Position numbers and translations under genes: made by a program. The notes under the pieces were generated by a model. It saw nothing but the letters and a program-made list of their open reading frames with translations. It was not told where the DNA came from and did not search any database. This document shows positions 4,897-28,048 of a stretch of DNA of 31,030 nt, piece by piece (position 1 is the stretch's first letter; each line of letters starts with the position of its first letter). Source of the stretch: a virus; the IMG/VR virus record IMGVR_UViG_3300046000_005770, positions 1-31,030 of that record; one strand, 5' to 3'.

Positions 4897-6648
4897 TTAT
4901 CTTAAACTATCCATGTCAAATGTTTGGATACCACTTACATTGATTACACCGAAGTAACGGTTGTTCACCATTTTCTTTGCGTAACGTGTCATGATTCCTT
5001 TGATAGGAGTCATTGTAAATGGATTGTACATTGTTGGAGTTAATTGTAATGGCACGTATGGTGCGTATACATATCCTGCGTCCAATAATGATTTTCCTTT
5101 ATGACCAATCAAGATTTTTCCAGCTGGGAAGTAAGGGTCACGATACACTTGGTAACGACCTGCTACTGAACCGATTTTCTCGATACCCATGTTGTATTGA
5201 TCTTGCTCAGGTTCTGCGTTTGATACGTGGAAATATTCCAAATCATCAAATACTGCAGAAACTTCAGAAGAAACAACAACCCAGTTAGCACCACCTCTTA
5301 AAGTAGTCTTATGGATTTGAGCTGAAATTTGGTTGATTTTTGTAACCAAAGTTTGGTTCCAATCTTTTTGAGTGTAACCTTGTAGAGTTGCTCCACCAGT
5401 TCCACCGTATTTCCAACCATTGTAATCCCATTTAGCGGTCCAAGCAGCACCTTTACGTAAGTCACGTAAGATTTCACGGTCAACCTCAGCAGCGATTTGC
5501 TCAGATAACAATGCAGTCAATTCTGCCTCAGCATCGATGTTGTGGAATGCACTAACGTCTTGAGCCAATTCAGGAGACCAGCTAGCTCTTAATTTTCTTT
5601 CAGTCACAGAAACTGTTACTGACTCTAAATCAAAAGATACTTCACCGATTTCATCTTCAAACTCTAAAGTTGCATATTGACGGTAAGTGGCTGTGAAGTC
5701 AGTACCATCTAATGTAGAACCTGTGATTATTGCTCCAGCAAAACCAGAAGTTGCTGAATATGATTGTAAATCAACACTTAAGTAAATTGTACCATCTTCA
5801 TCACAAATGTCTCTAAATAAGTTACCGTTAGTACCTGAAGACTTTTGTCCGTAAGATACGATACCTTTACCATATTTTTGAGTTACAACGTTGAACGGTA
5901 AGTAAGTTGAACCACTTAACGATTGTGAACGAGGTGCAGTTACTGTTAATGAAGCTAAGAACTCTTCTGTATCCATTTCGTTACCGTCTGGACCAGCTAA
6001 TTTACCTTGACCTAATTTAGAAAATCCTGTTAACTTTAAGATAACTGAATCGTATGTTTGAGTTGCTCCTGTAGCGATAGTTACTGGAGAACTTTCAACA
6101 CCATTTGAGAAAGTTACAATAGATGTACCTGTTAAAGAAGCTACTGTGAAAGAACCCTTTGAGTAATCAAAAAGACCTTGGTCTGCAGCATCACTGTTTT
6201 CGTAGAAACGATCGTAAAGAGGTTTCGCAGTTGCAGGATAACCAGCAGTTGCAGAAGGAGCTGAAGCAGCATCAGGATAACCGTATGGTTTATAATGTGC
6301 GGTATCATTTCTTTCTTGAATTTTTGGTACGAAATAGAATAATTTACCGATTGGTAAGTTCATAGCTTGTACAGACACGATGTCGTTAGCTAATAATTTT
6401 GAGAATACACGACGAATGATAGGGAAAACTACAGTCTCGAAAGAACCAGACGCATCTGCAATTGCAGCTTCGTTGATTAAATAAGACGCTTGGTTTTCAT
6501 ATAATTGTGCGATGTTATCTTTTTGGTGACCGTTAAGACCTTCTAAGAATCCTAAGTCATCCCATTTTTTGATGGTATCTTCTTTGATAACTCTAAGGTG
6601 TTTTAACCCGATGTTACCTACCATACCTGAATCTAATAATGCTCCCAT
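4897..6648 (-). CDS. 23: Major capsid protein (T4 gp23-like)
   Basis: A 583-residue protein that forms the hexamers of the phage head. The N-terminal region to residue ~60 is the removable delta peptide. L-I-N-E (57-60) followed by A-A-I-A-D fits the T4 prohead protease site and lies where T4 gp23 is cut (after residue 65). The following segment (S-F-E-T-V-V-F-P-I-I-R-R-V-F) is characteristic of gp23-like capsid proteins. The conserved C-terminal half includes an A-E-V-D-R-E-I-L-R-D-L-R helix and an I-G-H-K-G-K-S stretch. It is about 60 residues longer than T4 gp23, with the extra sequence mid-protein (Gly/Ser/Thr-rich, ~150-320), possibly a surface insertion. It follows the scaffold gene by 27 bases and ends at a strong terminator. 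No promoter was seen in the short gap, so it is probably transcribed with the scaffold gene. Confidence 0.95.
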   Translation of the reverse strand: MGALLDSGMVGNIGLKHLRVIKEDTIKKWDDLGFLEGLNGHQKDNIAQLYENQASYLINEAAIADASGSFETVVFPIIRRVFSKLLANDIVSVQAMNLPIGKLFYFVPKIQERNDTAHYKPYGYPDAASAPSATAGYPATAKPLYDRFYENSDAADQGLFDYSKGSFTVASLTGTSIVTFSNGVESSPVTIATGATQTYDSVILKLTGFSKLGQGKLAGPDGNEMDTEEFLASLTVTAPRSQSLSGSTYLPFNVVTQKYGKGIVSYGQKSSGTNGNLFRDICDEDGTIYLSVDLQSYSATSGFAGAIITGSTLDGTDFTATYRQYATLEFEDEIGEVSFDLESVTVSVTERKLRASWSPELAQDVSAFHNIDAEAELTALLSEQIAAEVDREILRDLRKGAAWTAKWDYNGWKYGGTGGATLQGYTQKDWNQTLVTKINQISAQIHKTTLRGGANWVVVSSEVSAVFDDLEYFHVSNAEPEQDQYNMGIEKIGSVAGRYQVYRDPYFPAGKILIGHKGKSLLDAGYVYAPYVPLQLTPTMYNPFTMTPIKGIMTRYAKKMVNNRYFGVINVSGIQTFDMDSLR

Positions 6649-7982: not shown

Positions 7983-8666
7983 TTATTTAGATAAAAAAGT
8001 ATCTAATTTACCCATCAATCTTTTCATTTTATCGTCAACTATTGGTTTTTCTTCTATTGATTCTTGATATTGATCTCTTTCAGATGGATCTGAAAATATG
8101 TAAGCTCCAGGTGTTGACGGTGATGACACCAAATCAAAACACACCAATTCAAAATCTTCTTGGACTATATTATCCCCTTTAACATTTTTAAGTGACCCCA
8201 CCCCTCTAGATGAAATACCTAAAACTGCACCATTCATTATTAACATGGCCGCTTGGTCTCCTTTAGTGGAGACAATACCCATTTTCTTCCATCCTGGTGA
8301 TGTGAATAATTTAATTTTTCCCATTAACATTCTACCATCCCACCAAGTTTCAACAATAGAGTGTGATACTCTATCTAAATCGATAAGTGAGGATGAAGGG
8401 TGATTTAACTCATTTAGAGCTCCACCTTTTTTAATAAGAGTTTGATATTTTTCGTTTTCTCTTTTGAGAATTGCTTCGGGATAGATTCTCCCGTTTTTGT
8501 TTGGGGTATCGTATTTTTGCAAAACAGCATAAAGAACAAGGTCTTGTGAAAAGTCCATGTTCTTCATTTCTGAAATTATTTTTTTATTATCTTCAGGAGA
8601 TACGTGACCGGCGTCATACTCAATTAAAATTCCTCTACCGGTTTCTTTTGGTCCTAATACCTTCAT
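7983..8666 (-). CDS. 21: Prohead maturation protease (T4 gp21-like)
   Basis: A 227-residue serine protease of the herpesvirus-assemblin-like fold that cleaves head proteins during maturation. Visible features are N-G-R-I-Y-P near residue 59, where prohead proteases have their first conserved block, E-L-N-H-P with the probable catalytic His89, and G-I-S-S-R-G-V-G-S with the probable nucleophile Ser152/153. A D-L-V-S-S-P-S-T-P-G block follows. Length agrees with T4 gp21 (212 residues). It stands upstream of the scaffold and capsid genes, the T4 order. A TATTTATA box lies 16 bases before the start. Confidence 0.92.
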   Translation of the reverse strand: MKVLGPKETGRGILIEYDAGHVSPEDNKKIISEMKNMDFSQDLVLYAVLQKYDTPNKNGRIYPEAILKRENEKYQTLIKKGGALNELNHPSSSLIDLDRVSHSIVETWWDGRMLMGKIKLFTSPGWKKMGIVSTKGDQAAMLIMNGAVLGISSRGVGSLKNVKGDNIVQEDFELVCFDLVSSPSTPGAYIFSDPSERDQYQESIEEKPIVDDKMKRLMGKLDTFLSK

Positions 8667-8704: not shown

Positions 8705-9130
8705 TTATTTCTTATTTACGTTGAAATTGAATAATTTTTTATCAGATAAACCATTATCTATGATATTTTCTAACAATTCTTTAATGGTCTTTTTAATCTC
8801 TTTAGATTTAACATCGAATTGAGTGTCAACGTATAATGTGATTTCTAAATTCATAAAAGACCTCTTTTCAAGTTTTATACCTTTAGTTCTAATGTCTAAA
8901 TCAACTATTGATTGTTGTTTAAAATTTGGACACTTGAGATTGTATACTATTTCTTTTATTTTTCTTCTTGTTTTATTAATTGTATTATTAAAGTCGTCAG
9001 TTTCATTTTCTGGTTGTGTCCACGAATTTAATTTTAAATAAATGGTTTTAAGATTTTTAAAATCTACGGTACCATAACCGATTTTCACGTCGTTGTACGC
9101 CCCTAGTGGGATGTATTTTCCAATTTTCAT
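8705..9130 (-). CDS. Hypothetical protein in the head-gene block
   Basis: A 141-residue, lysine-rich, mixed alpha/beta protein without signal peptide, membrane segment or recognised motif. A central N-L-E-I-T-L-Y-V-D-T strand is followed by a lysine-rich helix (K-K-T-I-K-E-L-L-E-N-I-I). It lies between the core-like gene and the protease gene, where T4 has small head genes 67 and 68, but composition does not show homology to them. It is oriented with the head genes; the divergent bS21 gene begins 104 bases away on the other strand. Confidence 0.65.
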   Translation of the reverse strand: MKIGKYIPLGAYNDVKIGYGTVDFKNLKTIYLKLNSWTQPENETDDFNNTINKTRRKIKEIVYNLKCPNFKQQSIVDLDIRTKGIKLEKRSFMNLEITLYVDTQFDVKSKEIKKTIKELLENIIDNGLSDKKLFNFNVNKK

Positions 9131-9208: not shown

Positions 9209-9216
9209 TATATTTG
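9209..9216 (+). promoter_or_regulatory. Bacteroidota -7 box for the bS21 gene
   Basis: TATATTTG fits the TAnnTTTG consensus and lies 18 bases before the bS21 ATG. No good TTTG is found 19-21 bases upstream, so the promoter is only half supported. Confidence 0.5.
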
Positions 9217-9234
9217 TGATATACTTATATTAAT

Positions 9235-9426
9235 ATGATAATAATTGACGTAACAAAAGAAAAAAGCCTCGAAAGTGCTTTAAGAACTTACAAACAAAAA
9301 GTTCAAAAAATTAAACAAGTTCAAAAATTAAGAGCAAGACAGGAGTTTGTTAAACCTTCAGTGAATAAAAGAAAAGAGGTTTTGAAGGCGATATATGTCC
9401 AACAAAAGAAAAATGGTCTTAGTTAA
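9235..9426 (+). CDS. rpsU: Ribosomal protein bS21 homologue
   Basis: A 63-residue basic protein matching bS21 of the small ribosomal subunit along its full length. It has the N-terminal beta segment M-I-I-I-D-V, the A-L-R-T-Y-K-Q-K helix, then L-R-A-R-Q-E-F-V-K-P-S-V-N-K-R-K-E and a C-terminal K-A-I-Y-V-Q-Q-K-K. The R-x-x-F-x-K-P-S-x-x-R motif is typical, and the short C-terminus resembles the Bacteroidota form. Tyr54 is present at the position I recall as contacting the 16S rRNA 3' tail in Flavobacterium ribosomes. The gene is the only plus-strand gene within the head block, with its own -7 box and a terminator formed by its last codons. It could replace host bS21 on ribosomes and favour phage messages; that role is inference. 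Confidence 0.9.
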   Translation: MIIIDVTKEKSLESALRTYKQKVQKIKQVQKLRARQEFVKPSVNKRKEVLKAIYVQQKKNGLS

Positions 9427-9437
9427 GACCATTTTTT
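9410..9437. terminator. Bidirectional terminator spanning two gene ends
   Basis: A 12-base inverted repeat (AAAATGGTCTTA / TAAGACCATTTT) with A- and T-tracts on its two sides. It contains the stop codons of both bS21 (+) and the facing gene (-), which overlap by 8 bases, so the hairpin is coding on both strands. Confidence 0.85.
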
Positions 9438-10165
9438 AATTCAGTTAATCTGTAATAATTAATTTTGGAGGTTTCCTTTTTTAGTACCTCATCTTTTACT
9501 TTAGATAATTTGGTTACCATTTCAGAATCTTTAGATTCATTTATAATATTACCAATTTGATTTAAAATTGATTCTTTTAATTCAGACGTTTTGTTTTCTA
9601 AATCTTCACTTGATAAATCAAGTATTGTTTTTAATTCAACTTTTTGTTCTTCAGAAAGTGTGTTAGTATAAAGTACATTAAAATTGTTTGCTAAAACAGC
9701 GTGTAATAAATTTTCGTTTGCGACAAATTTAGTCTCTTGAGACTCGTTAATTTCTTTTTTAGTTGTTAAATGTTCTACTAATTTCTTTTTTGCAATAACC
9801 TTTTTTTCAATATTTGATAATGAATCTTTTTCGGATAATATATCTAAAGACTCATATAATTCATTTGTTTCAATTTCAATATTACCCAATTTATCATGTA
9901 GAGATTCACAAAATACATTTAAATCATTCCAATTACCCATTGGTTGACCAAAATATGTATTTAATCCCTCAACATATAATTTTGCAATCTCTTTATCCTC
10001 GAAATATTTATTCTCAATTTCTTCATAAAACAAATACATTTCTTTAAATGCTTTGTTTTCTTTAATTGTGTTTAACATATCTTTAACTTCATTCTTATTT
10101 TGTTTAGAATAAGATTCAGTTATTTTAGTTAACATTTTTGATTTTATCGTTCCGAATTTGTTCAT
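9419..10165 (-). CDS. Helical prohead core-like protein
   Basis: A 248-residue protein that is almost entirely charged helix (Lys, Glu, Asn, Leu), with no signal or membrane segments. It starts 2 bases after the portal stop and so is co-transcribed with it. In T4 the genes after the portal encode prohead core proteins gp67 and gp68, and this position and composition suggest an analogous scaffold or internal protein. Motifs such as I-N-E-S (twice, near residues 138 and 209) and L-S-E-E resemble prohead protease sites, consistent with a core protein degraded during maturation. No direct homology could be recognised; the call is positional. Confidence 0.6.
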   Translation of the reverse strand: MNKFGTIKSKMLTKITESYSKQNKNEVKDMLNTIKENKAFKEMYLFYEEIENKYFEDKEIAKLYVEGLNTYFGQPMGNWNDLNVFCESLHDKLGNIEIETNELYESLDILSEKDSLSNIEKKVIAKKKLVEHLTTKKEINESQETKFVANENLLHAVLANNFNVLYTNTLSEEQKVELKTILDLSSEDLENKTSELKESILNQIGNIINESKDSEMVTKLSKVKDEVLKKETSKINYYRLTELKNGLN

Positions 10166-10167
10166 TT

Positions 10168-11985
10168 TTAATCGTTTAAAATATCGTTCAATTTAGTTTC
10201 TATTTCATAAATATTCTGTTGTGCTCTTTTCATATCAAATAAAGAGTTGAAATCTTCTTTTTCTTCACCTAGCATACCTAATATTTTTGATTTCTTTGAT
10301 TTAGTAGATTCACTTAGTGGTGCGTCTCCTCCAGCCGCTGGTGGTTCTGGCGTTGATGGCATTCCTCCACCTAACATATCACCACCACCCGGTGCTTCAC
10401 CACCTGCAGCATCCATCGCCTTTTCTCTATCTTCTTCCGAAATACCATACTTTGCATCCACATCATCAAACACACCTGAACGTTTAATTACATTCTGTGT
10501 ATTGTTTAATTCAAATCCCATTGCTCTTTCAAGACGTTGTTGTTGTAAATCTAAAACAACTTCATTATCACTAAATCCAAGAATATTTTTCTTAGCCCAT
10601 GTGTGAGATACAGGTAATATACCAATTTGTGATTGGTCTGATGTTGCATCTTTATAAAGTGTTATCTTCTCTTTCCACATTTCAATTTTTAATAAATCGG
10701 ATTGAGATGATGGATTAGTTAATGAAAGTGTAAAATTATTTAATTCATCCTCCATACCTAAAAGATATAGATGGATTAAAGCAACTTTATTTAATTCTTG
10801 TATTAATGATTTTTGTATTTTATTAATTGTTCTTGCAAAACGTATATCCATTAATGCAAGATTTTTTCCGTCACCAACAACTTCTTCAAAACCTAAAAAT
10901 GCTTTAGGAATACGAAGTGCTGCCAACATTTTCTTTTGAATATATTCAATGTCGGCAATTTCACCTAAATTTTGTGCCCCTGGTAATGTTTCAATCGGCA
11001 TAGTTTGACCTGGATCACGAACAGGTACAAAATAATCTTGGTCTACAGCCATTTGATTATATCTCATATCAACTTGACCATTACGAGGGTCAGACACTGG
11101 TTGACGTTTAAATTTATTTGCAACTTTTTGTACATATGGTTCGATATCTTTATCGTCCATGTTACCCACAAATATTTTAAATACACGTCTTTCAGGTGCT
11201 CTAGATGTTCTGTAAATTAACATTGCATCTTCAGCAAGTAAAAGTTGTTTCCAAATTCTTCTAATCTTATCTAACATTGAAGTACCATATGGTAACTTTC
11301 TATCGTCACCTAACAATCTAAAATGTGCAACTTCCCAAGCTTGAAATTCTAAATCTTTATTTTTCCATTGAAATCTTAATTCTCTTGATGGTACTTTACT
11401 ATCTGTATTAATTGCTTTCTTAGTTGACGCACCTTCAATTCTTTCAATTTCAATATTTGGTAATTGTTGTACACCAATAATACCTTTTTCTGGATCAATT
11501 TTTAAATAAACAAAATCATCACCATATTTCGCCATACCTCTAGCCCACATTTGTAGGTTTGTGTTAATGTCCAATTTGTTTTGAAATAAATCCTCAAGTA
11601 TTGTTTTAATTCTATCTGATTCCGAGTATATTGTTAATATTTCACCCTTTTCTGACATAGTGGTAGATTCCTCAGCGTATATGTCTAATGCTGCGGATAC
11701 CTCAGGAGTAAATTCCATTGATTCATAATCATAATACGCAGCCATTCTTGTTGGTTCATAGTAAACCGATTGGTTGTATAATGATTGGTCCAATTTTGAC
11801 CATTTGTCTGCAATATATTGACTCTGTTGAGCCTGTAACATTGCTTTCTCGTAGTCTTCTCTACTATCTGTTTTTAATAATTCGTCTTTGTTAAAATTAA
11901 AAGATGGTGTTTGTTGAGCCTGTTGACCAGGGAAACCAAACATTCTAGTTAACTTCTGAAATACGGTGGAGTTTTGATTTGCCAT
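10168..11985 (-). CDS. 20: Portal vertex protein (T4 gp20-like)
   Basis: A 605-residue protein expected to form the dodecameric channel at the head vertex through which DNA is packaged. The N-terminal third includes Y-E-P-T-R-M-A-A-Y-Y-D-Y-E-S-M and A-L-D-I-Y-A-E-E-S, a signature of gp20-like portals. The middle has L-L-A-E-D-A-M-L-I-Y-R-T-S-R-A-P-E-R-R-V-F, also strongly typical. P-K-A-F-L-G-F-E and the D-I-R-F-A-R-T-I stretch follow. It is longer than T4 gp20 (524) owing to a Gly/Pro/Ala-rich tail (about residues 530-560) and a final helix. It sits directly downstream of the terminase gene; the sheath and tube genes found there in T4 are absent. Confidence 0.95.
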   Translation of the reverse strand: MANQNSTVFQKLTRMFGFPGQQAQQTPSFNFNKDELLKTDSREDYEKAMLQAQQSQYIADKWSKLDQSLYNQSVYYEPTRMAAYYDYESMEFTPEVSAALDIYAEESTTMSEKGEILTIYSESDRIKTILEDLFQNKLDINTNLQMWARGMAKYGDDFVYLKIDPEKGIIGVQQLPNIEIERIEGASTKKAINTDSKVPSRELRFQWKNKDLEFQAWEVAHFRLLGDDRKLPYGTSMLDKIRRIWKQLLLAEDAMLIYRTSRAPERRVFKIFVGNMDDKDIEPYVQKVANKFKRQPVSDPRNGQVDMRYNQMAVDQDYFVPVRDPGQTMPIETLPGAQNLGEIADIEYIQKKMLAALRIPKAFLGFEEVVGDGKNLALMDIRFARTINKIQKSLIQELNKVALIHLYLLGMEDELNNFTLSLTNPSSQSDLLKIEMWKEKITLYKDATSDQSQIGILPVSHTWAKKNILGFSDNEVVLDLQQQRLERAMGFELNNTQNVIKRSGVFDDVDAKYGISEEDREKAMDAAGGEAPGGGDMLGGGMPSTPEPPAAGGDAPLSESTKSKKSKILGMLGEEKEDFNSLFDMKRAQQNIYEIETKLNDILND

Positions 11986-12039: not shown

Positions 12040-13815
12040 TTATTTAGATTTCCCAAATAACCACATATGTTCTCTATAAACGTCTTTAGGTATGTTTGTT
12101 GGATTATCTTTATGGTAAATATTGTTAGTATCCATACCCATTGCACCTATTTGGTCAAAAGATGAACCATATGAGTAATGTGTTTTAGAGGGTTCATAAG
12201 TTCTTTCGGATAATGCCCATGATTCAATTACCGCCTTATTTTTAGAATCGTTCCTTTGTAATTGATTGAAACACATATCACCAGCATAAAGAGCCATCGA
12301 CATACTCATAATTGAGTCGTCATGAGCCCCCTTCATGTGGTCAGGTCTTCCATTCATATAAACAAAAGTGTTTAATTCATTTAATAGTCGACTTGACCTA
12401 ACTAAAAATCCTTTTCTAAGTTGTTCTTCAAATGCTGCAACAATTTGAGTTCTTTTATTGTTAAAATTTATACCAGGAATTTTATCTAAAGCCTTTCTAT
12501 TATATTCCCAAATATTCTGAGTGTTAATCCCATCAATGAAAAGGTTTTTGTAATTCATTTCTTGTAACTTTCTTGATGTTGCAACACCCATACCACCAGT
12601 AATATCAATCACAATAAAACAATCGTATAATATACCCCATTTGTATGCAATATTAGCCAAATCATCTGGTGGTATTTTTCCTATGTATTCAACAACTTGT
12701 TCTCTATCGTCAAAATCAACAATATTAATTGAAGAAAAATCCTCACTATCTCCTCTACTAACATCGACACCCATAATATACCTATGACCTTCAACCGGCT
12801 CTTTCCACTGCCAAAACGTTCCTTGCATATACTTTTCTTTAGGAACTCGTATCATATTCTTAGCGATATTCTCTTGAATATCACCAGGAATAACTCCATC
12901 TCCTGAACCTAAGAAGTCACATTCCAATTCCTGTGCAATCTTACGTCTATCATATTTAAATTTCTTAGACATAGATTCAAACCAAGATGAAAATGGTTTA
13001 TATCCTTGTTCCACCAGTTCTTGGTATTTTTCAATATCAAAGTCATGTAAAACAACTTCATTGTCGTCATATTGTTCTCTATTTAACATGTAATGACATA
13101 TGTCAGAACATTTTACCCAAGATAAGTCTTTAGTGTAACGTGGGTCTTTAAACCACCTTAAATCGGTTATATGGAAATCATTGATTCCACGTAACGCTTG
13201 GTCGTAAACACCGTAATAGATGGGGTCATAACCATTTGGTGTGGAGATAAGAATAATCTTACCACCCGTTGATAGGGACGCCATAGATGCCGCCCAAAAA
13301 TCATCACCCGCTTCAATGTATGCTGCCTCATCAAATACAAGTATCGTTGGTGTATAACCACGTAACGCATCCGCAGATGTTGCTACCGCCTTAACCTCAC
13401 AACCATTGTTTAATCTAAATCTACTTTCTGAGTTTTTATCGGGTGAAAACCCAACATTAATCCATTCAGGCCATTGTTCAATAAAGTGTCTAACCTTATT
13501 AGCCATCTCCACTGCGGTGTCTCTTTTGTTTGCAATAAGAAGAACTCTTTCAGGTTCACTTTCTTTTGCTGTTTGTAATTTTTTTGAAATCCAAGCTGCG
13601 GTTACTGTTGTTACACCTGCCTGTCTATATTTTCTAGTGATGTTTTCATTATAATTTTCATAATCCTGAATTAATTGAATTTGGTCAGGAAATAACTCTA
13701 ATGGAACATATTTTTTTTGAGTATTATCATAAGTCTGCAGATATGTTTTTAACGCATATGGGGCATCTTTAATAATCTTTGCATATTCTTTTAATTGTTC
13801 TAATTTGGAATTCAT
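12040..13815 (-). CDS. 17: Terminase large subunit (T4 gp17-like)
   Basis: The 591-residue DNA-packaging motor: an ATPase that pumps DNA into the prohead and a nuclease that cuts it. The ATPase domain has a Walker A-like Y-R-Q-A-G-V-T-T (63-70), Walker B I-L-V-F-D-E (158-163) and the coupling segment I-L-I-S-T-P-N-G (~189-196). The nuclease domain has G-V-D-V-S-R-G with Asp352, V-I-D-I-T-G-G with Asp405 and H-D-D-S-I-M-S with Asp500/501, the expected acidic triad. The Walker A lacks the usual G-K-T/S ending (G-V-T-T), a deviation seen in some T4-like terminases. It starts behind a terminator and TATTTATA box, and is followed by the portal gene. No small terminase gene was identified. Confidence 0.95.
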   Translation of the reverse strand: MNSKLEQLKEYAKIIKDAPYALKTYLQTYDNTQKKYVPLELFPDQIQLIQDYENYNENITRKYRQAGVTTVTAAWISKKLQTAKESEPERVLLIANKRDTAVEMANKVRHFIEQWPEWINVGFSPDKNSESRFRLNNGCEVKAVATSADALRGYTPTILVFDEAAYIEAGDDFWAASMASLSTGGKIILISTPNGYDPIYYGVYDQALRGINDFHITDLRWFKDPRYTKDLSWVKCSDICHYMLNREQYDDNEVVLHDFDIEKYQELVEQGYKPFSSWFESMSKKFKYDRRKIAQELECDFLGSGDGVIPGDIQENIAKNMIRVPKEKYMQGTFWQWKEPVEGHRYIMGVDVSRGDSEDFSSINIVDFDDREQVVEYIGKIPPDDLANIAYKWGILYDCFIVIDITGGMGVATSRKLQEMNYKNLFIDGINTQNIWEYNRKALDKIPGINFNNKRTQIVAAFEEQLRKGFLVRSSRLLNELNTFVYMNGRPDHMKGAHDDSIMSMSMALYAGDMCFNQLQRNDSKNKAVIESWALSERTYEPSKTHYSYGSSFDQIGAMGMDTNNIYHKDNPTNIPKDVYREHMWLFGKSK

Positions 13816-19317: not shown

Positions 19318-21339
19318 ATGGCAGTAGATTTTTTTGAAGATGGACCAACAGTTAACCCTAAGAAAGTAAGGAAAGGTTCGAATACCCCGATTTTGGATAA
19401 TTTTTCTCGAGATTTAATAAAACTTGCAGAAGAAGGTAAGATTGACCCTGTTGTTGGTAGGGACAAGGAAGTGAAAAGAATTGCTCAAATTCTTTCTCGT
19501 AAAAAGAAAAACAACGCCGTTATTGTGGGTGATCCTGGTGTGGGTAAATCTGCATTAGTTGAAAAACTAGCATTAATGATTCTTAAAGGTGATTGTCCAA
19601 CAAATTTATTGGATAAACGAATTATGTCTTTAGATTTAACGTCATTAGTTGCTGGAACTAAATATCGTGGACAGTTTGAGGAAAGGATAAAAGCAATTAT
19701 TAATGAATTACAAGAAGCCCCAAATGTTATCATATTCATTGATGAATTACATACTATGGTTGGTGCGGGTAATGCGAGTGGTGCAATGGACGCCGCAAAT
19801 ATTCTTAAACCAGCATTGGCTCGTGGAGAATTACAATGTATTGGTGCGACGACCTTTGATGAATTTAAAAAACACATTGAAAAAGACGGGGCATTAGTTC
19901 GTCGTTTTCAAAAAGTTATTTTAAAAGAACCCACATCATTAGAAACGATTGAGATTTTAAAAAATCTAAAAAATTCATATCAAGAATTTCATAAAGTAAC
20001 GTATGAAGATGGAGTGATTGAAACTATCGTTAAACTTGCAGGTCGTTATATCACTGATAGACAATTTCCTGATAAAGCGATTGATGTTTTAGATGAACTT
20101 GGTTCTGAAAAAAGGATTTCAACTAGAATTCCTGAATCCATTGAAAAATTAAAGAAACAGGCGGACGAAATTAAAGAAAGAAAAATCCAAGTAGTGAAAT
20201 CTCAAAATTATGAGCAAGCAGCCAAATTAAGAGATGATGAACGAAAAATAATGGATAAACTTGAAGACGAAAAAATAAAATGGTCTGAAAAACAAAAAGA
20301 TAATAAAATACCCGTATCAGTTGATGACGTTTATGTGATTATTTCCGAAATGACTGGAGTACCAATTTCAAAATTAGATTCTAAAGAAACTCAAAAGTTA
20401 TTAAATTTTGAAACATTACTTGGGGAAAAAGTAATTGGTCAAGAAGAGGCTGTAATGACAATATCTAAATCAATACGAAGAAATCGTGTTGGAATAAAAG
20501 ACGCTAATAAACCAATAGGTTCGTTTATTTTCTTAGGTTCCACCGGTGTTGGTAAAACATATTTGGCGAAGACATTAGCTGAATTTTTATTTGGTGACCC
20601 TGAAAAAATTATTCGTATTGATATGAGCGAATATATGGATAGACATAACGTTTCAAAATTAATCGGTTCTCCTCCAGGTTTCGTTGGTTATGATGAAGGG
20701 GGTCAATTAACTGAGAAAGTTAAAAATAACCCATTCTCTGTCATTTTATTTGATGAAATTGAGAAGGCTCATAAGGATGTTTTCAATTTACTATTACAAA
20801 TTTTAGATGAAGGACATTTAACAGATTCATTTGGTAGAAAAGTTAATTTTACGAATTGTTTAATTATCATGACATCAAACATCGGAGCCAAAAAAGTTTC
20901 AGAGTTTGGTGGTGGAGTTGGGTTCTCAACATCATCTTCTGAAGTTCAAAAATATGAAGTTAGAAAGACAATGATTCAAAAGGCATTAAAACAACAATTT
21001 AATCCTGAATTTTTAAATCGTATTGACGATGTTGTTCTATTCAATTCATTAAATGATGAAACCTTAAAGAAAATTATCAATATTGAAATTGGTAAATTGA
21101 ATAATCGTTTAAAAGATAAAAACTACAAGGTAACTTTTGACAAATCAGTAACCTTAAGAGTATTTGAATTAAATTCACAAGAAGAATATGGTGCGAGACC
21201 TATTAAAAGAATTATCCAAAATCTTTGTGAAGATTTTTTAAGTGAAGAAATATTGAAAGGTAACATTGTTGAAAATGAACAAATCACTTTAAAATCCAAA
21301 GATCAAAAATTAATAATCACGAAAAAGATTGATAAATAG
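19318..21339 (+). CDS. ClpC-like AAA+ unfoldase lacking the N-domain
   Basis: A 673-residue Hsp100 protein with two AAA+ modules that unfolds proteins by ATP hydrolysis and may feed them to a ClpP peptidase. Module 1 has Walker A G-D-P-G-V-G-K-S (71-78) and Walker B I-F-I-D-E (139-143). A short middle domain contains a UVR-like Y-E-Q-A-A-K-L-R-D-D-E (298-308), as in ClpC, and not the long coiled coil of ClpB. Module 2 has G-S-T-G-V-G-K-T (407-414) and I-L-F-D-E (476-480). A V-G-F tripeptide (534-536) sits where ClpP-binding loops occur. The usual ~140-residue Clp N-domain is missing: only ~25 residues precede the first module. It has a host-type promoter, suggesting early or continuous expression. 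Substrates unknown. Confidence 0.92.
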   Translation: MAVDFFEDGPTVNPKKVRKGSNTPILDNFSRDLIKLAEEGKIDPVVGRDKEVKRIAQILSRKKKNNAVIVGDPGVGKSALVEKLALMILKGDCPTNLLDKRIMSLDLTSLVAGTKYRGQFEERIKAIINELQEAPNVIIFIDELHTMVGAGNASGAMDAANILKPALARGELQCIGATTFDEFKKHIEKDGALVRRFQKVILKEPTSLETIEILKNLKNSYQEFHKVTYEDGVIETIVKLAGRYITDRQFPDKAIDVLDELGSEKRISTRIPESIEKLKKQADEIKERKIQVVKSQNYEQAAKLRDDERKIMDKLEDEKIKWSEKQKDNKIPVSVDDVYVIISEMTGVPISKLDSKETQKLLNFETLLGEKVIGQEEAVMTISKSIRRNRVGIKDANKPIGSFIFLGSTGVGKTYLAKTLAEFLFGDPEKIIRIDMSEYMDRHNVSKLIGSPPGFVGYDEGGQLTEKVKNNPFSVILFDEIEKAHKDVFNLLLQILDEGHLTDSFGRKVNFTNCLIIMTSNIGAKKVSEFGGGVGFSTSSSEVQKYEVRKTMIQKALKQQFNPEFLNRIDDVVLFNSLNDETLKKIINIEIGKLNNRLKDKNYKVTFDKSVTLRVFELNSQEEYGARPIKRIIQNLCEDFLSEEILKGNIVENEQITLKSKDQKLIITKKIDK

Positions 21340-22187: not shown

Positions 22188-22433
22188 ATGAGTCAATTTA
22201 TTGAATCTTATTTTAAAACAACATTACCAAAACAACGAAATATGAAATTTCATTCAAGTTTATTTAAAAATCAATGGGCTGTATACCCATTACCCTTTGT
22301 ATATTTTTATTTTGAAACATGTGAACCAGAATCACATAGAACATTATTAGATAATAAATTATGTGGTATATACTTGTCATTTAATTGGTTGAAATGGACT
22401 TACAATATTGGATTTTATAAACCCATCAAGTAA
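22188..22433 (+). CDS. Small unknown protein of the RNA-repair operon
   Basis: An 81-residue protein rich in aromatic residues (Phe, Tyr, Trp), with an F-V-Y-F-Y-F-E strand and a C-S-F-N-W-L-K-like amphipathic segment near its end (Y-L-S-F-N-W-L-K-W-T-Y). No signal peptide. It fits exactly between the kinase and the ligase: its ATG follows the kinase stop with no gap, and its TAA overlaps the ligase ATG (TAATG). Such tight conservation suggests a partner of the repair enzymes. Function not recognised. Confidence 0.65.
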   Translation: MSQFIESYFKTTLPKQRNMKFHSSLFKNQWAVYPLPFVYFYFETCEPESHRTLLDNKLCGIYLSFNWLKWTYNIGFYKPIK

Positions 22434-23470
22434 TGTTAGAAACATTAGAAAGATACCACAAAGATGGTTTGTTACATAAACAAACCCATCCAACCCTTGA
22501 TTTAACTATTTGGAATTATAGTCCAAAAGTTCAGTACGAAAGATTATGGGATGAGATTACTTTGCAATGTCGTGGATTGGTTACAAATTCAAAAGGTGAT
22601 ATTGTTGCTCGACCATTTAAGAAATTTTTCAACTACGAAGAACATAAACCAGAAGATATTCCAAATGAAGATTATGTCGTATATGAAAAGATGGATGGTT
22701 CATTAGGTATTCTTTTTAATTATGAAAATGAGTGGATAATGGCAACACGCGGATCATTCACATCACCACAGGCAATTAAGGGTAAAGAAATTCTTGATAG
22801 ACACGACATCAGTGCATGGAGAAAAGACAATACATATTTGTTTGAAATTATTTATCCTGAAAATAGAATTGTTGTTGATTATAAAGGTGAAGAAAAATTA
22901 GTTGTTATTGGTGGTTTTCATACAGAAACAGGTGAAGAAATACCTGATAGTAGTTTGTTTTGGACGCAGGATTCGGGATTTGAAGTTGTAATGACATATA
23001 AGACTTGGGGAGAAGGATATGATTTACTTAAAGAAGAAATTAGTAAAGACAGAGAGGGATATGTAATTAAATTTAAGAATGGTTTTCGTATGAAAATCAA
23101 AGGAGAAGAATATGTTAGACTTCACAAAATTTTAACTAACATATCTAATCGTGATATATGGGAATATTTGAAAGACAATAAACCGTTCGATGAATTACTT
23201 GAAAGAGTTCCAGACGAATTTAACGGTTGGGTTAAAGAAACTATTAGGGATTTTACTATTAGATTTGATAATATTAATAAGGACTATATTGAGATTTATG
23301 AGAATTTAAAATCACGAAATTTAGATAGAAAAGAGTTTGCGATTAGAGCAAAAGAATATAGACACTCTAACATTTTATTTAACATGTTAGACGGAAAAGA
23401 ACATAAAAAAAATATTTGGAAAATTATATATCCAAATTATTCAAAGCCATTTAAAAATGATGAAAATTAA
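22433..23470 (+). CDS. RNA ligase, T4 Rnl1-like
   Basis: A 345-residue ATP-dependent ligase that seals broken RNA, such as tRNA cut in the anticodon. The nucleotidyltransferase motifs are in order. C-R-G-L-V (46-50) and F-K-K-F-F-N-Y-E-E (62-70) precede motif I K86-M-D-G-S, where Lys86 would be adenylylated. Then come F-E-I-I-Y-P-E-N-R-I-V (137-147, motif III region), E-G-Y-V-I-K-F (208-214, motif IV) and K-I-K (221-223, motif V). A helical C-terminal domain follows, as in Rnl1. It is shorter than T4 Rnl1 (374). TAATG coupling to the upstream gene and a 14-base overlap with the cREC gene show co-translation. Confidence 0.93.
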   Translation: MLETLERYHKDGLLHKQTHPTLDLTIWNYSPKVQYERLWDEITLQCRGLVTNSKGDIVARPFKKFFNYEEHKPEDIPNEDYVVYEKMDGSLGILFNYENEWIMATRGSFTSPQAIKGKEILDRHDISAWRKDNTYLFEIIYPENRIVVDYKGEEKLVVIGGFHTETGEEIPDSSLFWTQDSGFEVVMTYKTWGEGYDLLKEEISKDREGYVIKFKNGFRMKIKGEEYVRLHKILTNISNRDIWEYLKDNKPFDELLERVPDEFNGWVKETIRDFTIRFDNINKDYIEIYENLKSRNLDRKEFAIRAKEYRHSNILFNMLDGKEHKKNIWKIIYPNYSKPFKNDEN

Positions 23471-23948
23471 TAATAAATTGAGATTGTATTTGGATGACGT
23501 TCGTACGCCTTTGGATAATGATTGGATAATTGTTCGTAATTACGATGAATTTGTTGCAAAAATTAAATTACATGGATTAGAAAATTTTGATGTTATATCA
23601 CTTGATCACGATTTAGGTGATGGTGCTATGATTGAATATTATACAAATGTTAAAAATAATTATGAATTAAATTATAATAACATTGATGAAAAAACCGGTA
23701 TGGATTGTTGTAGATATTTGGTAAGTGAAAGTATGAATACTAAAATACCCTTACCTCAAATTTATGTCCATTCAGCCAATCCTATTGGTAGTGCAAACAT
23801 GATGGGTTATATAAATAACTACTTTATGAACTGTAGGACACCTCAGACCTGTATTAGGGTTAAAATTGAACACACTATAGACGAAAAACTTCATTTGTCA
23901 CCAGAAGCAAGAGCGGCTAAATGGGACAGAACAAAGGGGGAAAAATAA
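23457..23948 (+). CDS. cREC-like receiver-fold protein (cyclic-phosphate processing)
   Basis: A 163-residue protein with L-D-D-V-R (12-16), L-D-H-D-L-G (49-54) and V-H-S-A-N-P (104-109) followed by G-S-A-N-M. These mark the cREC variant of the receiver fold, which is not a response regulator and has been predicted to process cyclic 2',3'-phosphate RNA ends in repair operons (recalled from comparative genomics, so not proven here). It overlaps the ligase end by 14 bases. A second Met at 23460 is an alternative start. In the operon it would prepare the 3' end while the kinase prepares the 5' end for ligation. The C-terminal 30 residues are basic and probably flexible. Confidence 0.8.
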   Translation: MMKINNKLRLYLDDVRTPLDNDWIIVRNYDEFVAKIKLHGLENFDVISLDHDLGDGAMIEYYTNVKNNYELNYNNIDEKTGMDCCRYLVSESMNTKIPLPQIYVHSANPIGSANMMGYINNYFMNCRTPQTCIRVKIEHTIDEKLHLSPEARAAKWDRTKGEK

Positions 23949-27325: not shown

Positions 27326-28048
27326 TTATTTTGCAAATATTCCCTTTTTAATCATTCTATCAAGAATGTTAGCACAGGCAATATCTAACGCCTTTTTAGT
27401 TGCAATACTAATTGTTGATTGGTTGAATTTAATTGGGTCAATAGATGCATCAGATAAAAGAGTTAATTCTCTTTTTGTTGTTGCTTCACCTAAACCTGAC
27501 CCACCAAATAAGACACCTGTCTCCGCATCTGTAAACCTAACCTGAAGACCTATACGAGTTACCATATTGTCTTGTATACCATTTTTAAGGTTGATGGTTT
27601 CATCTTCTGACACTGAGTAGTCATAACACTCAATCGTCACAAAATACTTTGCCAAATTGATTTTACCACGACCATCTAATTTATTCTCAGAAATACCTGC
27701 CGCAGATGCTTGAAATTGTTTTACCATCCTATTCTTAATTTCTGTCTTGTCTTCAGTAAATTTAAATCTGTTTAAGTTTTCAAGGTATTCCATAGATATA
27801 TTTGCAACACCTAAACCAACACGTTTTTCTTTTAGTTCAGGATACATTTCATACATCTCGTCAGAAATTCCTGCCTTTAATATTTGAATTGGAATTTGAG
27901 GACCATCGTAATCCATGTACGCACTTATATCTCTTTTTTTTTCAAAGTCCGCCTTGTAGTCCTCTGTCTTAGTTTTACCTATTGTTTGTCCGTCAACGAC
28001 AACAGCGCTTAGTAAAAAAACGCTTAATAATATTAATAATTTTTTCAT
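27326..28048 (-). CDS. CsgG-like exported protein
   Basis: A 240-residue protein with a signal peptide (K-K-L-L-I-L-L-S-V-F-L-L, cleavage near D-G-Q) and no lipobox. The body resembles the CsgG fold: R-V-G-L-G-V-A-N, an L-N-R-F-K-F-T-E-D segment, then I-G-L-Q-V-R-F-T-D-A-E-T-G-V-L-F and a terminal helix A-T-K-K-A-L-D-I-A-C-A-N-I. CsgG forms the curli outer-membrane pore; Bacteroidota have many CsgG-related proteins of unknown use. No curlin or accessory genes are visible. Monocistronic: TATTTATA box upstream, terminator downstream. Identity to CsgG proper is low, so this is a fold-level call. Confidence 0.6.
   Translation of the reverse strand: MKKLLILLSVFLLSAVVVDGQTIGKTKTEDYKADFEKKRDISAYMDYDGPQIPIQILKAGISDEMYEMYPELKEKRVGLGVANISMEYLENLNRFKFTEDKTEIKNRMVKQFQASAAGISENKLDGRGKINLAKYFVTIECYDYSVSEDETINLKNGIQDNMVTRIGLQVRFTDAETGVLFGGSGLGEATTKRELTLLSDASIDPIKFNQSTISIATKKALDIACANILDRMIKKGIFAK

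Follow-up and report, generated by a model that had tools for sequence, protein, structure and literature searches.

Why should a virus carry a gene for a ribosomal protein on the strand opposite to its head genes, and could the product change which messages the ribosomes of its host initiate? The question arises from a window (the whole stretch of DNA analysed, 31,030 bases of an IMG/VR virus record) that matches, at 99.99% identity, a segment of the 129,722-bp contig G004. The genes around the locus are the following.

4897..6648, minus strand: major capsid protein (T4 gp23-like)
7983..8666, minus strand: prohead protease (S77, T4 gp21-like), with TATTTATA 16 nt before its ATG
8705..9130, minus strand: divergent neighbour of 141 aa with no function assigned, found in 75 of 81 loci
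9235..9426, plus strand: bS21 (rpsU) coding sequence, 63 aa, with Tyr54 and the tail KNGLS; Pfam, PHROG and PDB matches
9419..10165, minus strand: convergent neighbour of 248 aa after the portal gene, with an all-helical model (pLDDT 77) and the C-terminus NYYRLTELKNGLN
10168..11985, minus strand: portal (T4 gp20-like), with GTATTTATA 4 nt before its ATG
12040..13815, minus strand: TerL (T4 gp17-like), with GTATTTATA 3 nt before its ATG, after a terminator-like hairpin

A phage bS21 within a T4-like head cassette

The original prediction named the product of 9235-9426 as bS21 amid head genes of the opposite strand, and both parts were borne out. PF01165 matched the reading frame over residues 4-55 (E 6e-10), scoring 39.1 bits where the cut-off is 27, and PHROG 21469 ('ribosomal protein S21', E 4e-6) and the bS21 chains of PDB entries 9i5v (9e-12) and 7jil (3.9e-11) agreed; 7JIL is the Flavobacterium johnsoniae ribosome (PMC9723584). 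Capsid protein, protease, portal and TerL all lie on the minus strand. The predicted structure consists of two helices, 6-36 and 41-59 (pLDDT 81, pTM 0.38), and a Foldseek comparison of this model with the PDB gave no match, a result that says little when the chain is so short. Scanning IMG/VR with the protein brought up 175 relatives; the 80 best of these and the window together make up 81 loci with 35 distinct full bS21 proteins; from a second scan with an alignment as query the best 80 of 480 were kept and a few contigs used. Among 40 distinct sequences of 63 codons the median pairwise dN/dS was ~0.11 (671 usable pairs, dS 0-2), and, as judged from these codon changes, the bS21 of these phages is under purifying selection. 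A chance reading frame is rejected by the Pfam match, the 175 relatives, this dN/dS and the conserved neighbours, and the product is, on comparison of sequences, a genuine and functional-looking bS21.

The virus is probably a large T4-like phage of Bacteroidetes, a member of the group published by Chen et al. 2022 (PMC9723584; this and the other papers are cited from the available parts of their texts). Those authors described 47 phage genomes with Bacteroidetes as predicted hosts, in which bS21 lies on the reverse strand amid these same head genes, is transcribed together with them and carries an aromatic residue 54 in all bS21 analysed, and they proposed that the viral protein is taken into ribosomes to the advantage of phage mRNAs. 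The window has in common with these freshwater-lake myophages the reverse-strand bS21 between two hypothetical genes amid TerL, portal, protease and major capsid protein, the aromatic residue 54, the T4-like character and the GC range (~31-32% here, 31.0-33.7% there). Their genomes measure ~293-331 kb with 5-25 tRNAs (PMC9723584); four tRNAs were found on G004 and four on a relative of 335,630 bp, G001, either contig being possibly a partial genome. Hence the finding of bS21 and its reading as a bias on ribosomes are a rediscovery of Chen et al. 2022. What is new here, beyond the Chen phages, is the Shine-Dalgarno (SD) contrast between phage and host rpsU, a promoter-like motif abutting start codons and a coding palindrome that joins two gene ends; the main text of that paper (PMC9723584) contains none of the words terminator, promoter, autoregul- and convergent.

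Other phages resemble the window in part. The top-listed TerL match, at 27% identity, was Flavobacterium phage vB_FspM_immuto, which has the same T4-like TerL-gp20-protease-MCP cassette but differs in that no bS21 is annotated within it and its post-portal gene is not demonstrably related; it was not among the five bS21 matches in the phages collection. Among the ribosomal proteins that phages carry, bS21 is reported to be the commonest (PMC9976891). Pelagibacter phage HTVC008M, also a large myophage with bS21, whose protein was shown to enter Escherichia coli ribosomes (PMC6375957), differs by its alphaproteobacterial host and bS21 lineage.

Residue 54, which the original prediction had singled out as a key contact, is Tyr in the window and in all 81 phage loci (best 80 of 175 relatives plus window), as it is in 129 of 130 host loci (108 distinct bS21 proteins); its role and its stacking on A1534 are both stated in the literature (PMC9976891, PMC9723584). 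Compared with the F. johnsoniae protein (7jil), phage bS21 belongs to the same family, keeps Tyr54 and has a similar C-terminal half, but its N-terminal helix has diverged and its tail reads KNGL[SND] where host types end, for example, in LRDQEEI. The differences are confined to one part of the chain. At nine positions (8, 9, 10, 14, 17, 18, 21, 23 and 28) phage residues do not overlap at all with those of the 130 host loci, while at positions 29-60 none is phage-specific. In many genomes bS21 is present in several copies, and 18 of the 20 additional ones sought could be retrieved; adding them leaves five phage-specific positions (8, 10, 14, 17 and 18), positions 9, 21, 23 and 28 being matched in 1, 4, 4 and 7 of the 18. 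Chen et al. 2022 had placed the divergence of phage bS21 in the N-terminal helix (PMC9723584), and this count of positions in aligned proteins sharpens their statement.

When phage and Bacteroidota bS21 were put into one tree (165 rows), the phage proteins formed a single clade (100/100) whose stem measures 1.13 changes per column. The clade was placed among non-Flavobacteriaceae Bacteroidota, but the fork concerned reaches 85/98 and only 38 of 161 inner branches are well supported. An additional host copy as the source of phage bS21 is not supported by this tree, yet such an origin is conceivable, as some of the additional copies carry phage residues at 9, 21, 23 and 28. Residue 54 in the 18 additional copies is Tyr in 14, His in three and Phe in one, and several Flavobacteriaceae genomes hold an extra divergent bS21 without a strong SD (L304, L305, L308, L309, L312, L315, L317-L320).

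One palindrome within two convergent coding ends

The gene that faces bS21 is present at 81 of 81 loci (best 80 of 175 plus window), three of them cut by contig ends; the six loci that appear to lack the divergent neighbour are contigs ending too close to rpsU. Two features lie where the convergent genes meet.

9419..9426, no strand: 8-nt overlap of the convergent gene ends, containing both stop codons
9409..9436, no strand: palindromic hairpin with a 12-bp stem, a 4-nt loop and T-runs on both sides; candidate bidirectional terminator

The window hairpin folds at -14.2 kcal/mol on the plus strand (z -5.7) and at -12.6 on the minus strand (z -3.5), which supports the predicted shared terminator as a candidate; a consensus terminator scan listed 9409-9436 for the minus-strand direction only. 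Since the terminator candidate is contained in the coding ends of both genes, the two proteins finish alike, with NGL and 0-2 further residues, at all 81 loci; the overlap is 8 nt at some of these loci and 4 nt at others. Counted over the nine pairs that the NGL codons form, the stem has no mismatch in 63 of the 81 loci and a single one in the other 18. The NGL codons vary at third positions only, so DNA pairing alone is an insufficient cause of their conservation in the 81 loci, and one of the two proteins is likely to be constrained at the protein level; the neighbour is the better candidate, since a conserved NYYRLTEL precedes its tail. Covariation lends the stem modest support: in eight chosen rows with the 8-nt overlap (six distinct), both partners had changed in two of the 12 pairs, pairing held in 98.6% of cells, and the covariation score was reached by 3 of 500 shuffles, the number of doubly changed pairs by 167 of 500.

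Chen et al. considered the conserved bS21 C-terminus as possibly important for ribosome substitution (PMC9723584). Because the same palindrome encodes the identical end of the neighbour, the conservation of the tail has another explanation and a ribosome-substitution feature is not needed to account for it. Stems of at least 10 pairs in both coding ends occur in 2 of 32 convergent gene pairs of G001 and 1 of 15 of G004, bS21 included, with a weaker 8-pair stem in one more G004 overlap. The second pair of G001, at 85555-85600, also has an 8-nt overlap inside a hairpin, the tails there being KKPIN and KNPSN.

As to what the convergent protein is, no Pfam or PHROG family matched the window protein above cut-off (best Pfam E 0.4), and its relatives gave scattered weak family matches in single members, the best 1.6e-4 in one of 27. 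A structure search returned three uncharacterised phage proteins at E < 0.001. Comparison of profiles gave a probability of 1.3% for kinship with the protein that immuto has at this position. The bS21_CN gene of Chen et al. (PMC9723584) may be this convergent neighbour. The protein often shows LxE (e.g. LTE) before its conserved tail, with LKQ or LVQ in some relatives. The T4 prohead protease consensus resembles LxE.

Leaders without Shine-Dalgarno sequences and a motif abutting start codons

In F. johnsoniae the strong-SD rpsU mRNA is favoured by ribosomes that have no bS21, a bS21 deprived of its C-terminus or the Y54A variant, and rpsU is autoregulated as a consequence of that preference; extended-SD autoregulation of rpsU is found in many, not all, Bacteroidia, in which most host messages have no SD (McNutt 2023, PMC9976891). 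We scored leaders by their pairing with a Flavobacterium 16S tail, taken from the three of five genomes where the pattern was found; this one tail was applied to all hosts. Phage rpsU leaders never reached -8 kcal/mol (0 of 80, the window leader included): their median was -2.1 and their minimum -7.4 kcal/mol in the 80 of 81 loci with enough leader (28 distinct 22-nt leaders), and AGGA, GGAG and GAGG were absent from the last 25 nt of these 80 leaders. Host genes differ sharply, 45 of 50 Flavobacteriaceae loci attaining -13 kcal/mol or better with a median of -18.4, in a non-random set of the 30 best HMM matches plus 20 chosen ones out of 97 positive among 100 genomes. The best genome hits outside this sample (80, one without leader, with titles mostly of Cytophagales and Bacteroidales) reach -13 kcal/mol in 55 of 79 usable cases and do not in 24; one gene is common to both host sets (L157 = L278). 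The extended SD for rpsU autoregulation, which many Bacteroidia have, F. johnsoniae among them, is thus absent from the rpsU leader of the window and from all 80 phage leaders scored.

The lack extends to the whole phage, as the original prediction had held. None of the 35 called leaders of the window reaches -8 kcal/mol and their median equals that of shuffled leaders. The 127 genes of G004 have a median of -1.1 against -1.05 when shuffled, with three at -8 or better against one, and the 344 genes of G001 a median of -1.25 against -1.0, with five against four; both gene sets are greedy ORF calls whose starts are approximate. Two points temper the contrast: since nearly all phage genes are without SD, phage rpsU may simply conform to the rest of the genome instead of having evolved an escape, and since 11 of the 18 additional host copies have no strong SD, bS21 genes of this kind are not unique to phages.

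Two elements precede the bS21 start codon.

9209..9216, plus strand: host-type -7 box TAnnTTTG, here TATATTTG, ending 18 nt before the ATG
9222..9229, plus strand: TACTTATA, a variant of the phage-wide motif TATTTATA, ending 5 nt before the bS21 ATG

The host-type -7 box proposed for bS21 is indeed present, but it is not the best conserved element of the leader: TAnnTTTG occurs in 63 of 79 full-length phage bS21 leaders, at 17-19 nt from the ATG where present, against 76 of 79 for TA[TCA]TTAT at 2-6 nt. As sole bS21 promoter the box is weakened by the 16 leaders without it, and all seven distinct leaders of that kind keep TA[TC]TTAT. Since TATATTTG lies upstream in the sense direction only (3 of 127 genes in G004 and 9 of 344 in G001, antisense 0 and 0), bS21 may also have a second promoter of the host type; the box is probably not the main late promoter.

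In G004 and G001 alike the commonest upstream 8-mer is TATTTATA, with sense against antisense counts of 22 and 8 in the former and 56 and 11 in the latter. Within 80 nt upstream it was found in 22 of 126 G004 genes (simulated mean 2.6, maximum 8) and 57 of 344 G001 genes (7.7, maximum 15), and at 3-7 nt before the ATG in 6 of 126 and 29 of 344 (means 0.15 and 0.47, maxima 2 and 3), the simulation consisting of 200 first-order Markov resamples of pooled leaders. In the window its distance to the ATG is 3 nt for TerL, 4 for portal, 16 for protease and 24 for a 406-aa gene before that of the capsid protein, and a hairpin that looks terminator-like by eye precedes it both at TerL and at the gene 27326-28048. 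A sense-strand promoter of the T4 late type, which we take to be TATAAATA, is rejected, its reverse complement being commoner upstream (22 of 127 genes in G004 and 56 of 344 in G001, where TATAAATA itself has 8 and 11). Transcription from T4 late promoters starts ~6 nt downstream. If the same spacing applied to TATTTATA, the bS21, TerL and portal mRNAs may be leaderless or nearly so. A literature search for TATTTATA together with phage and promoter found no report.

A proposed replacement of host bS21 and its alternatives

What was observed at this locus is the identity of the protein, its Tyr54 and conservation, the missing SD, a promoter-like motif and a terminator-like hairpin; from there we infer incorporation, replacement, escape from feedback and message preference. 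The reading we prefer, to which we give an even chance, is that phage bS21 replaces the host protein late in infection, keeps ribosomes blind to SD sequences, escapes the feedback and holds host rpsU low. Made late, the phage protein would displace host bS21 on 30S subunits, where its retained C-terminal half, Tyr54 included, would keep the 3' tail of the 16S rRNA within the pocket of the platform. The phage rpsU mRNA, with no SD and probably a very short leader, would be translated by such replete ribosomes outside the host feedback, while host rpsU, best translated with an exposed anti-SD, would be kept low as phage bS21 fills the ribosomes. Phage rpsU should therefore escape, and could exploit, host bS21 feedback, and its SD-less gene suggests how the virus could outcompete host bS21; in the available text of McNutt 2023 phages are discussed speculatively and phage rpsU leaders are not treated (PMC9976891).

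To keep Tyr54 is not enough to give phage mRNAs an advantage over ordinary host ones, because most Bacteroidia messages have no SD (PMC9976891); rpsU is the host message expected to respond to occlusion of the anti-SD, since its strong SD causes it to be translated better by ribosomes without bS21. Any further preference for phage mRNA would more likely come from the altered N-terminal helix, because the consistent differences from host proteins sit there. A sharper version, in which an SD-less and possibly leaderless late mRNA, beyond the reach of the host feedback, lets bS21 fill the 30S subunits, hide the anti-SD and thereby lock down host rpsU, with the N-terminal helix tuned to very short-leader late mRNAs, we consider rather unlikely.

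Replacement, if it occludes the anti-SD, gives the general idea of ribosome take-over a specific and testable form: filled ribosomes would translate host rpsU poorly and phage rpsU normally. Reporters bearing the SD-less phage and the strong-SD host leader should give opposite outcomes according to whether the anti-SD is hidden or not. In Flavobacterium, which is open to genetic work, such a read-out would be clean, host rpsU being nearly the sole message with a strong SD.

Another reading, possible though somewhat doubtful, is that the phage only supplies extra bS21, which keeps 30S subunits complete as host expression collapses, acts like the host protein and selects no messages. The host-like C-terminal half with Tyr54, the purifying selection and the fact that most host mRNAs (PMC9976891) and phage mRNAs alike have no SD are all consistent with it, but the nine positions in 8-28 unshared with the 130 host loci (five after the 18 additional copies) and the clade stem of 1.13 changes per column represent more divergence than pure supply would need.

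Phage bS21 might instead act as a selective shut-off, impairing most host initiation while permitting late phage mRNAs with no or very short leaders, which we hold to be unlikely. The excess of TATTTATA at 3-7 nt before the ATG (6 of 126 and 29 of 344 genes, means 0.15 and 0.47) points in this direction, and so do two results from E. coli. Pelagiphage bS21 was found in E. coli ribosomes, which in vitro made GFP at ~5% of control (Mizuno 2019, PMC6375957) and were thus nearly inactive on that mRNA, so that poisoning is possible; and 61S particles that lack several proteins including bS21 translate leaderless mRNA (PMC4929434). Leaderlessness is, however, deduced from motif spacing, and the 61S particles have no bS21 at all and lack several other proteins besides. 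A non-ribosomal role, as a small basic protein acting in the head or as RNA-binding partner of the convergent neighbour, is very improbable despite the fixed place in the head cassette, the strict pairing of the two genes at 81 of 81 loci and two points made by Chen et al., a neighbour of similar phylogeny and the possible packaging of bS21 (PMC9723584), for it would require no retention of Tyr54 and the other residues that hold the 16S tail, and the palindrome accounts for the shared tail.

Some further genes of these phages may be recorded here. A ClpA/ClpB-like AAA+ ATPase is encoded at 19318-21339 (plus strand) of the window; McNutt 2023 speculates that phage factors, e.g. a protease, aid bS21 exchange (PMC9976891). 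At 22433-23948 (plus strand) a T4-type RNA ligase adjoins a protein with a cyclic-phosphate-processing receiver domain; the two could act as a pair in RNA repair. GOLLD RNA (RF02032) occurs in five of ten bS21-phage contigs, G004 and G001 among them (L225:16832-17238(-) and L265:8548-8949(-), 299 and 290 bits), and a literature search found no report of GOLLD with bS21. The same five contigs carry a phage tmRNA (RF00023) over cut-off, in G004 and G001 at L225:13937-14333(-) and L265:6274-6679(-) (81 and 91 bits), ~1.9-2.5 kb from GOLLD and with ARAGORN-predicted tags ATSNVAVA and ATSTVAVA.
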